A DNA stretch of 38,159 nt, from the IMG/VR virus record IMGVR_UViG_3300033149_001184, positions 1 to 38,159 of that record; one strand, written 5' to 3'. Of the stretch, positions 3,033 to 35,280 are shown in pieces. The notes under the pieces are model-generated. The model was not told the origin of the DNA, ran no database searches, and saw only the letters and a program-made list of their open reading frames with translations. The DNA is from a virus. The position numbers were made by a program, and so were the translations under genes. Position 1 is the stretch's first letter, and every line of letters starts with the position of its first letter.

Positions 3033-3061
3033 AATATAACTCGCATAGCATGATATGTCAA
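3033..3061 (-). promoter_or_regulatory. Sigma-70-like promoter with operator
   Basis: On the minus strand TTGACA (3061-3056) is followed by a 17-bp spacer and TATATT (3038-3033). The spacer contains GCATAGCAT (plus strand 3043-3051), a motif shared with the promoters at 5.64 and 37.68 kb. It drives the accessory operon that includes the Csx16-like gene. The 60-bp stretch before it, up to the end of the endonuclease gene, is AT-rich and has no gene. Confidence 0.8.
3043..3052. promoter_or_regulatory. GCATAGCATG operator candidate
   Basis: The motif lies 4 bp upstream of the -10 hexamer, inside the spacer. Related copies sit at 5631-5640, 37670-37678 and 10705-10714, each beside a -10 or -10-like box. 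Binding by the 76-aa HTH protein encoded at 5372-5602 is an inference. Confidence 0.55.
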
Positions 3062-4219: not shown

Positions 4220-4531
4220 CTACAGGCTATTCAGAATCGCCCGCACTCTGGCAAGCATCGCCTCAGCTTCGTCCTTCTCTGCGCCGTCAGGCAGCTTATC
4301 TATCAGCCGCTTAATCGTGCCCGCGACGTCGCGCAGCATCGCTCTGGCGAGCTTGGTGTTCAGCCCGATCACTGCCACGGCTTGAACGATTTTGACCGGT
4401 AAGCTATCGGGGAGGGTAAGGCCGACGCTCTCCAGCAGCCGGAGAAGCTTTTTCGATAGCCGCGCAGCCTTGCGCAGCGCCCGCCCGACCTTGGTAAAAA
4501 TTGATTTGAACCACCGCCACAGTCTACCCAT
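4220..4531 (-). CDS. Hypothetical basic helical protein, 103 aa
   Basis: The N-terminal 35 residues are strongly basic and amphipathic (RWFKSIFTKVGRALRKAARLSKK). They are followed by a hydrophobic helix (KIVQAVAVIGLN) and an acidic, helical C-terminus. This could bind membranes or nucleic acid, including the structured RNA that ends just upstream of its start. No family is recognised. The ribosome site is AAAGGAGAATGTA. Confidence 0.6.
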   Translation of the reverse strand: MGRLWRWFKSIFTKVGRALRKAARLSKKLLRLLESVGLTLPDSLPVKIVQAVAVIGLNTKLARAMLRDVAGTIKRLIDKLPDGAEKDEAEAMLARVRAILNSL

Positions 4532-4541
4532 TACATTCTCC

Positions 4542-4581
4542 TTTGTGCATCGCCGATGATGTGCGAGCTGGTTTGTGCATC
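4542..4581. repeat. Pair of TTTGTGCATC direct repeats
   Basis: The 10-mer occurs at 4542-4551 and 4572-4581 in the stretch between the structured RNA and the ATG at 4531. It may belong to the 3' part of the RNA or act near the ribosome site of the downstream gene. The role is unknown. Confidence 0.5.
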
Positions 4582-4588
4582 ACGAAAC

Positions 4589-4947
4589 GCGAAATACGAT
4601 TCGCTAATTGAGGGCTCCCCGGTTCAAAGCCACAACCAGGCGTTTATCTCTACGAGATTATTCTCCTTTGTTTTGGGGAGCCCCCAAACTCTGAGCAACG
4701 GTGAGGCCGGATTCCCTCTATTACTCCGGCTCCCTGCCACTCCCCGCCCTTGCGTTGCGAACCGAATCTCTTCGGGGCGGGCTCAACCCGGCGCTATCAC
4801 GCCGCTCACCATTGCAACTCGATGTGCCGCGTTATCTCTCTGAGTGGCCCAGCAGACACGCCATTCAGACCCCACCAAGTCATTGGATGACTGCGCACAG
4901 CCACCCCAACGATCTGCTTCTCCCTCACGCGGCACAACTCCTGTTGT
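4589..4947 (-). ncRNA. Large structured RNA of unknown family (orphan candidate)
   Basis: The roughly 420 bp between two genes have no credible minus-strand ORF but fold into many nested stems. From 5' to 3' on the minus strand: a 10-bp stem 4927-4936 with 4823-4832, enclosing 4913-4918 with 4851-4856 and a hairpin 4887-4892 with 4878-4883; an 11-bp stem 4805-4815 with 4695-4705, enclosing 4800-4804/4789-4793, 4775-4781/4743-4749, 4771-4775/4762-4766 and 4725-4730/4706-4711; a 9-bp stem 4675-4683 with 4612-4620; and 4600-4604 with 4589-4593. Two stems contain pairs that are G-U wobbles on the minus strand but A-C mismatches on the plus strand, which fixes the RNA sense as minus. It lies between coupled genes in the HTH operon and should be transcribed with them. 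I cannot assign it to GOLLD, ROOL or any other named large phage RNA. Exact ends are uncertain. Confidence 0.7.
4612..4683 (-). ncRNA. tRNA-like 72-nt subdomain of the structured RNA
   Basis: A closing stem (GGGCTCC with GGAGCCC, 9 bp if extended) encloses a 5-bp hairpin (4654-4658/4646-4650) and a hairpin CTGGTT/AACCGG directly abutting the 3' acceptor-like strand, as a T-arm would. The overall size is that of a tRNA. It lacks a proper anticodon loop and D-arm, so it is a tRNA-like fold at best and not a tRNA gene. Confidence 0.45.
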
Positions 4948-4954
4948 CAAAGAC

Positions 4955-5164
4955 TTATTCGTCTTCGGTGGTAAAAGGATTCTTTGCCTTGCGCCCTAAC
5001 GCCCAGTTGAATAATTTCTTCCACCACGGCAAAGGGCAATGACCGCAAATTAATTCCCCGTCTATCCAGACAGCGAACGGAGCCTTAAGCCCCACGATAT
5101 GTAGCTTATGTGAGGACTCCTCATCAACAAACTTAAAAACACCCTCTAGTAATGATCGCCTCAT
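4955..5164 (-). CDS. Hypothetical protein, 69 aa
   Basis: A small protein with a strand-rich middle (HKLHIVGLKAPFAVWIDGELICGHC) and a basic, aromatic C-terminus (PLPWWKKLFNWALGRKAKN). No family is recognised. It overlaps the upstream micro-protein gene by ATGA. The structured RNA starts within about 10 nt of its stop, so the RNA is probably released from, or transcribed with, this message. Confidence 0.6.
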   Translation of the reverse strand: MRRSLLEGVFKFVDEESSHKLHIVGLKAPFAVWIDGELICGHCPLPWWKKLFNWALGRKAKNPFTTEDE

Positions 5165-5301
5165 TCTAAAATCCTTTTCCGCACGTCACGCGGGATCGGG
5201 ACATGCTTCATGCTTTTTTTCGCTTCGATGATAACCAGCGCCAGAGACCACACGCACCCGGCAAAGGCCAAGATCAACAGCACCGCGATAGCGTAGTTCA
5301 T
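5161..5301 (-). CDS. Micro membrane protein, 46 aa
   Basis: An N-terminal transmembrane helix (YAIAVLLILAFAGCVWSLALVII, residues 3-25) is followed by a short basic tail (EAKKSMKHVPIPRDVRKR). The start at 5301 overlaps the stop of the 25-aa ORF by ATGA, and GGAGGGTGACCA is the ribosome site. The stop overlaps the next start by ATGA. It may be a holin-like, signalling or host-takeover membrane protein; the sequence does not say which. Confidence 0.6.
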   Translation of the reverse strand: MNYAIAVLLILAFAGCVWSLALVIIEAKKSMKHVPIPRDVRKRILE

Positions 5302-5375
5302 TGGTCACCCTCCACGATTAGAGCATATACAACGCCGAGAGCTGTCACAATTATCACCGCTAATGCGCCTATCAT
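5298..5375 (-). CDS. Micro membrane protein, 25 aa
   Basis: The ORF is essentially one transmembrane helix (GALAVIIVTALGVVYALIV) with an acidic end. It overlaps the HTH gene stop and the next start by ATGA on both sides, and AAGGAA precedes it. Its size makes chance possible, but the coupled overlaps and clean hydrophobic helix favour a real product. Confidence 0.45.
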   Translation of the reverse strand: MIGALAVIIVTALGVVYALIVEGDQ

Positions 5376-5624: not shown

Positions 5625-5652
5625 ATTATACATACTATGCAAGAGATGTCAA
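5625..5652 (-). promoter_or_regulatory. Sigma-70-like promoter of the HTH operon
   Basis: TTGACA (5652-5647), a 16-bp spacer and TATAAT (5630-5625) on the minus strand. The spacer includes GCATAGTATG directly next to the -10 box. The upstream gene stops at 5657, so this promoter occupies the whole gap between the late operon and the HTH gene. Confidence 0.85.
5631..5640. promoter_or_regulatory. GCATAGTATG operator candidate
   Basis: On the minus strand GCATAGTATG abuts the -10 hexamer of the HTH promoter. It is the copy closest to the proposed regulator gene and would give autoregulation. Confidence 0.5.
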
Positions 5653-34116: not shown

Positions 34117-34968
34117 TTACTTCCCCTCCCAGTAGTATTCTGCTTCTCCGGCCTCTATCTCCTCGAGGATTCTCAGGGCCTTGTCCGGGCGGATGATGTA
34201 GTCAAAATTCGCCCGCCAACCCCTAGCGTTCTCGCCGAGGTGGAACGGCGATTCTACGATCCACTCAAAGACTTGCCGCCACTTCTCCAGGTCTGGTAAC
34301 TCCTTTAGGCGGGCTTTGGCCGCCGTCCTGCGCTTCTCACTGATTCTCGTCACTGAGGGCAGGGCGTGCGGTGGGCAGATTTCATTCCAGAGTTTTACCA
34401 GCTCGGAAACGGGGAAAGTCGGGATCGGAGATTCCGACATAGAGTCTTTTTCTTTTTTCTTATTTCTTTTTTCTTCTTTCTTATTAGTACGGGGGACCGT
34501 TAGAGGACCGTTAGAGGACCGTTTAAGGACCATTAAAGGACCGGATTCGGGATAAGTATTTTGCTCGCCGTTGTTTATGGGGACCGTTAGAGGACCGTTA
34601 GAGGACCGTTTAAGGACCGTTGAGTGACCACCCTGTTTTTCGCTGCGACAACCGTTGTCGTCATAGCCCTTCACAGTTACCAGGATTCCGCGCCGGTGCA
34701 ACGTAGTGGTATCGATCAGACCGCTGCGTTTTAATCGATTAAGTAGACGCCGAATTACACGAATGGAAACTCCTAACCTGGCTGCCAGGCCGGAGCGAGT
34801 GGAGATGCACTGACCCGCATCTAGCTCGATACCAGTTTTAGGATCGCGCCGGGGTTTGTAGGAGGCTAAATAGTAGAGCTGAGCATAGAGCGCCCACTCG
34901 AAAAATTTCAGCTTGTAGGCATATCTAGGGAGCGGCACGTAGCCGCGAGAATTGAGGTTGTCTTCCAT
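34117..34968 (-). CDS. Replication initiator with winged-helix domain and internal origin, 283 aa
   Basis: Residues about 8-120 form a wHTH (YAYKLKFFEWALYAQLYYL, CISTRSGLAARLGVSIRVIRRLLNRLKRSGLI). Residues about 130-185 are a linker encoded by 11-bp iterons and a poly-purine tract (KKEEKRNKKKEKD). Residues about 190-283 form a conserved replication C-terminal region (KLWNEICP, RRTAAKARLKEL, GWRANFDYIIRPDKALRILEEIE). Like lambda O, it probably binds its own coding sequence to start replication. The start at 34968 follows GAGGGGGGAC; the long GC-rich upstream extension is non-coding. Confidence 0.7.
   Translation of the reverse strand: MEDNLNSRGYVPLPRYAYKLKFFEWALYAQLYYLASYKPRRDPKTGIELDAGQCISTRSGLAARLGVSIRVIRRLLNRLKRSGLIDTTTLHRRGILVTVKGYDDNGCRSEKQGGHSTVLKRSSNGPLTVPINNGEQNTYPESGPLMVLKRSSNGPLTVPRTNKKEEKRNKKKEKDSMSESPIPTFPVSELVKLWNEICPPHALPSVTRISEKRRTAAKARLKELPDLEKWRQVFEWIVESPFHLGENARGWRANFDYIIRPDKALRILEEIEAGEAEYYWEGK
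34444..34489. other. AT-rich tract beside the iterons (unwinding element candidate)
   Basis: About 46 bp of T-rich/A-rich sequence (plus strand mostly T and C) directly next to the first iteron cluster. In lambda-type origins such a tract melts first. It encodes the Lys/Glu-rich linker of the initiator. Confidence 0.6.
34495..34549. repeat. 11-bp iterons, cluster 1 (replication origin candidate)
   Basis: Five head-to-tail units start at 34495, 34506, 34517, 34528 and 34539: GACCGTTAGAG twice, then GACCGTTTAAG, GACCATTAAAG and a degenerate GACCGGATTCG. They lie inside the initiator gene beside an AT-rich tract, the lambda ori arrangement. Confidence 0.7.
34582..34629. repeat. 11-bp iterons, cluster 2 (replication origin candidate)
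   Basis: Units start at 34582, 34593, 34604 and 34615 (GACCGTTAGAG, GACCGTTAGAG, GACCGTTTAAG, GACCGTTGAGT) plus a partial at 34626. The first three repeat the order of cluster 1, so one cluster probably arose by duplication of the other. Confidence 0.7.
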
Positions 34969-34969
34969 G

Positions 34970-35045
34970 TCCCCCCTCAGTAATTCTCCACCCCCTCGAA
35001 TTGGAGAAAGGCTGACGCCCCGCGAGTTGCCAACGGCTGAGGGGG
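34970..35045 (-). promoter_or_regulatory. Leader fold that can hide the initiator ribosome site
   Basis: In the RNA, CCCCCTCAG (35045-35037) can pair for 9 bp with CTGAGGGGG (34980-34972), which contains the Shine-Dalgarno of the initiator gene. It encloses a 7-bp stem, TTCTCCA with TGGAGAA (35008-35002 with 34990-34984). The fold would block translation unless opened. Confidence 0.55.
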
Positions 35046-35118
35046 TTAGATCACGCTGACAACTGTTGTACGCCACGGCGAGATAAATATCTGACGGAGC
35101 GCCGAGCCTCGAGTACAT

Positions 35119-35147
35119 ATTATACCCCATTGTCTCCGGTGTGTAAA
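35119..35147 (-). promoter_or_regulatory. Near-consensus promoter, initiator-proximal
   Basis: TTTACA (35147-35142), a 17-bp spacer and TATAAT (35124-35119). It lies about 150 bp upstream of the initiator ATG and leaves a leader of about 145 nt. It does not carry the GCATAGYAT motif. Confidence 0.8.
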
Positions 35148-35155
35148 CTAAAATT

Positions 35156-35250
35156 CCTTGCCTCGCCTCGCCAGGCCACGCCCTGCCCGGCCGAGCTGTG
35201 CCAAGCCGCGCCACGCCCTGCCCCGCCCGGCCCAGCCTCATCTTGCTTTG
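35156..35250. repeat. CCNNG pentamer array, 19 units
   Basis: From 35156 to 35250 the plus strand is an unbroken run of 5-bp units, mostly CCNNG, with exact 5-bp phase (ccttg, cctcg, cctcg, ccagg, ccacg, ccctg and so on); the last three or four units are degenerate. It fills the space between the two promoters. It is not protein coding. Confidence 0.8.
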
Positions 35251-35251
35251 C

Positions 35252-35280
35252 ATTATACCTCATCGCCGCCAGCATGTAAA
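35252..35280 (-). promoter_or_regulatory. Near-consensus promoter, HNH-proximal
   Basis: TTTACA (35280-35275), a 17-bp spacer and TATAAT (35257-35252) inside the 3' end of the HNH gene. The TAA stop codon of that gene is part of the -10 box. Its sequence is similar over about 35 bp to the second promoter, so the two look like diverged copies. Confidence 0.75.

Follow-up and report, generated by a model that had tools for sequence, protein, structure and literature searches.

What fills the 423 nt between positions 4532 and 4954, the largest intergenic gap of this phage, when the next largest measures 159 nt? The window, by which we mean the whole 38,159-base stretch analysed (IMG/VR virus record IMGVR_UViG_3300033149_001184), represents a tailed phage; it carries terminase, portal and tape-measure genes, and all the assignable phage genes lie on its minus strand. 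The region sits within a cluster of small genes that is located downstream of the tail genes, and the composition and purine skew of the gap resemble those of its neighbours. A codon-position Markov model trained on the genes of the phage scores both neighbouring ORFs as coding and the region as mostly noncoding (the features are collected in Table 1); relatives of the 69-aa and of the 103-aa ORF were looked for by searches and none was found. The candidate promoter before the HTH gene is the sole perfect sigma-70-type match in the window. Judging from its sequence, it likely drives the transcript containing the region, and no minus-strand terminator is predicted between the two. On the same strand, two tiny ORFs for membrane proteins, of 25 and 46 aa, overlap at 5161-5375; the match of the longer one to an Rz-like spanin is very weak (E 0.3). 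Also on this strand, a promoter-like sequence, TTGACA-17-TATATT (11/12), lies at 3033-3061 inside a 91-nt gap.

Table 1. Features in and around the gap, with their positions in the window
Feature	Positions	Strand	Remarks
Candidate sigma-70-type promoter, TTGACA-16-TATAAT	5625..5652	-	12/12 consensus; before the HTH gene
69-aa ORF	4955..5164	-	directly upstream of the region; coding score positive
Domain I	4823..4936	-	perfect 10-bp closing stem 4936-4927/4832-4823; pair probability 0.55-1.0; overlaps the 40-codon ORF
Possible 40-aa small gene, VREKQIVGVAVRSHPMTWWGLNGVSAGPLREITRHIELQW	4806..4928	-	GTG start, AGGAG 9 nt upstream; borderline coding score
Domain II	4695..4815	-	11-bp closing stem 4815-4805/4705-4695, one G-U
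Domain III	4608..4687	-	13-bp closing stem 4687-4675/4620-4608, one G-U; quasi-palindromic in DNA
Exact 12-nt copy (ACAAAGGAGAAT) of the 4535-4546 Shine-Dalgarno region	4660..4671	-	mostly paired within domain III; no start codon behind it
Shine-Dalgarno region of the 103-aa gene	4535..4546	-	largely unpaired
103-aa amphipathic ORF	4220..4531	-	downstream of the region; coding score strong

The gap is filled by three long stems placed in series and separated by 7-nt spacers. A previous reading made from the sequence only had announced three long domain-closing stems of 9-11 bp; these stems are real, and their lengths are 10, 11 and 13 bp. In domains I and III the closing stem consists mostly of pairs with a high ensemble probability, while the closing stem of domain II reaches about 0.42 on the minus strand versus about 0.9 on the plus strand; one of the inner hairpins of domain II carries a GAGA tetraloop. 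Forcing all three stems at once on the minus strand costs just 0.1 kcal/mol relative to the free optimum. Dinucleotide shuffles contained three stems of this kind (10 bp or longer, at most one G-U each) in 1.3% of cases for the minus strand and 0.3% for the plus strand; among 414-nt windows taken from the phage itself the share is 1.6%.

There is in the region a large, mostly noncoding fold which is better than chance. The z-score of its minimum free energy (MFE) is -3.35 (100 shuffles) or -3.21 (200 shuffles) on the minus strand, and -4.07 or -4.51, respectively, on the plus strand. The fold beats dinucleotide shuffles (P about 0.005-0.01), and among phage windows of equal length it surpasses some 96-98%, a z of -3.35 being reached by 2-4% of the windows sampled. 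Domain III is the most significant single fold (z -4.3 on the minus strand, -3.8 on the plus strand). Good folding alone is weak evidence here, because this phage has coding stretches whose folding equals or surpasses that of the region; indeed several coding windows outdo the region in a 200-nt fold scan. No RNA fold of the phage is stronger than the one on the minus strand at 2501-2700 (z -6.1 to -7.5), which spans the overlap of two coding ORFs.

The sequence-only reading had also argued that imperfect pairs which are G-U on the minus strand and A-C on the plus strand imply selection for a minus-strand RNA. This argument fails. The plus strand folds as well, and G-U pairs are found on both strands: in the stems of domains II and III they occur exclusively on the minus strand, in the stems 4839-4848/4860-4869 and 4612-4621/4674-4683 exclusively on the plus strand. 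Of the two stems on which the argument was built, 4815-4805/4705-4695 is as described; the 6-bp stem 4639-4634/4624-4619 can form by direct reading, though in competition with the 13-bp stem, which also uses positions 4619-4620. The MFE of the minus strand less that of the plus strand is -20.5 for the region, and the norm of the phage is -12.9 (SD 14.7); in this phage such a difference is nothing unusual. The strand-specific folding by which a structured RNA would betray itself through G-U asymmetry is absent, the plus-strand z being equal or better.

The similar significance of the plus and minus folds would suit an element acting at the level of DNA, that is, inverted repeats working equally on both strands as double- or single-stranded DNA, in protein binding or recombination or as the remnant of an insertion. 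The quasi-palindromic domain III, whose covariance model also matches the plus strand, and the 12-nt direct repeat formed by the two Shine-Dalgarno copies point the same way. Yet the spacing of the arms (36-100 nt) is unusual for protein-binding palindromes, copies resembling such an element were not found elsewhere, and an origin is already offered by iteron-like repeats in the replication initiator gene. All in all, we consider a DNA element quite unlikely.

Could the gap simply hide a gene? The absence of a good ORF, claimed from the sequence, holds for 4541-4805 (265 nt), where no frame clearly scores as coding and no plausible gene was found; it fails for 4928-4806, which contains the 40-codon GTG ORF with its AGGAG. 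Without its stop codon this ORF scores +4.6 bits, when in-frame windows of genes have a mean of 8.8 (SD 5.3) and out-of-frame windows a mean of -8.5 (SD 5.9), and a Shine-Dalgarno sequence together with a score like this one is met in 0.1% of shuffles. Its GC content by codon position (0.60/0.47/0.65) matches that of the genes of the phage (0.60/0.45/0.65). From the AGGAG and the score it follows that domain I may be a tiny gene, and this is weaker against the same-strand background, where the score is just about 2 bits across the open frame and becomes negative once the stop codon is counted. One may then read the region as this small gene followed by a short spacer, the hairpins having no RNA function of their own. 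The neighbouring genes are just as tiny (25, 46 and 69 aa), which speaks for this reading; however, the searches for a protein relative of the ORF found none, and 265 structured nt would be left unexplained, including domain III, the strongest fold of the region. We regard it as somewhat unlikely.

The comparison with known RNAs and genomes brought no relative. Rfam, run on the whole window, gave 0 matches at gathering score (GOLLD, ROOL, OLE or any other family), and under a relaxed threshold only MIR319, which is sub-threshold (20.3 bits versus 54) and stems from a long hairpin. The sequence-only reading could match the region to neither GOLLD nor ROOL, and the scan bears it out: the region is in no Rfam family. 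No homologue of the region was returned by blastn against phage and plasmid records, by a region-based pattern search of GTDB genomes, or by searches of IMG/VR by way of the neighbour ORF, the portal, the endonuclease and two pseudo-translations of the region. One hit to a pseudo-translation (L118) was rejected as a chance peptide match in a long opposite-strand ORF, without similarity in DNA. In the IMG/VR terminase alignment the best relatives are about 53% identical, and fifty long IMG/VR records taken from this alignment gave by blastn just chance matches of 14-21 nt. Covariance models of domains II and III, run on 49 other records (most of them picked for related terminases), matched only the window itself; the model of domain I was run on the window alone. 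Exact scans for the stem pairs of domains I and III gave 19 contigs, none of them similar beyond the stem. The homology searches for the region reach close relatives only. By these sequence comparisons the region is an orphan, and the phage itself has no close relatives among the collections searched. A 13.9-kb IMG/VR contig (IMGVR_UViG_3300033150_000425) encodes an identical portal protein and does not contain the region; the portal being identical, this contig is therefore the same phage or a near twin assembled again.

GOLLD and ROOL are large, multibranched noncoding RNAs of phages and prophages, whose function is unknown (PMC12286853). Like them, the region is phage-encoded, large, multibranched by prediction and mostly noncoding; unlike them, it has no Rfam match, and no homologue of it turned up in the collections searched. 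It is also shorter (about 400 nt) than GOLLD, many members of which exceed 800 nt, and GOLLD and ROOL are often near tRNA islands whereas the window has no tRNA gene. OLE RNA, found mainly in extremophilic bacteria, is another large structured bacterial RNA (PMC12286853); the region, large and by prediction structured too, differs in having no Rfam match and in lying in the spacer of a phage operon. A free-standing, trans-acting ornate RNA of about 350-400 nt, cut from the operon transcript and comparable in kind to GOLLD and ROOL, would agree with the size, the three multibranched domains, the location in a phage, the largest noncoding gap and the lack of an Rfam match. Such an RNA is nonetheless unlikely, given that no relatives were found in IMG/VR, GTDB genomes, phage or plasmid records, that neither a promoter nor a terminator of its own was found, that no tRNA lies nearby and that the plus strand folds equally well. 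It seems to us decidedly improbable that the region founds a new class among the ornate RNAs of phages, one that is unrelated to GOLLD and ROOL, has three stem-closed domains in a row and is made from the operon transcript.

In the polycistronic mRNAs of phages, structured intercistronic regions exist. The present region resembles them as a folded spacer between two cistrons, beside a ribosome-binding site, and it is unusually long and multibranched compared with them. Our best explanation, to which we give a probability of about 0.42, is tentatively that it is a structured intercistronic, mostly noncoding part of the minus-strand operon mRNA, acting in cis. The transcript started at the upstream promoter would run through the region, and two or three consecutive stem-closed domains would fold in the stretch that separates the 69-aa gene's stop codon from the ribosome-binding site preceding the 103-aa gene. 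These domains may act as a structural spacer affecting the processing or the stability of the mRNA; the folded spacer could also separate, or uncouple, translation of the gene upstream from that of the gene downstream, and the second Shine-Dalgarno copy would be locked in domain III. What computation shows in this explanation is the stems and their better-than-chance fold, the length of the gap, the match to a promoter and a downstream ribosome-binding site that is largely unpaired. A different regulation, in which a stem closing the 5' and 3' ends (UCUUUG/CAAAGG) sequesters the Shine-Dalgarno sequence, was rejected, as the downstream one is largely unpaired in its flanking context.

Against the cis-acting spacer stand the failure of the searches to find a homologue, the comparable fold of both strands, as a DNA-level inverted repeat would give, the closing stem of domain II, predicted to be just about 42% probable on the minus strand, the equal or better folding of coding stretches, and the chance that the first third is a gene. 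What survives of the large structured RNA first proposed is thus a mostly noncoding, better-than-chance fold, outside Rfam and inside an operon behind a perfect promoter; the G-U strand argument is lost, and the first third is perhaps a small gene. Few large phage RNAs are known, and the region, should its RNA fold prove to be under selection, would join them as a compact (about 400 nt) object of study.

A replication origin at 4532-4954 was also considered and rejected, since iteron-like 11-bp repeats sit in the initiator gene instead. Two arrays of them (GGACCGTTAAA/GGACCGTTAGA) occupy 34494-34629 within the replication initiator gene 34117-35253, and from their sequence they are likely the origin of the phage. 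On the minus strand near this locus, two near-perfect promoters TTTACA-17-TATAAT, 133 nt apart (35119-35147 and 35252-35280), flank a GC-rich stretch of imperfect repeats lying where the initiator ORF starts and the HNH gene ends.
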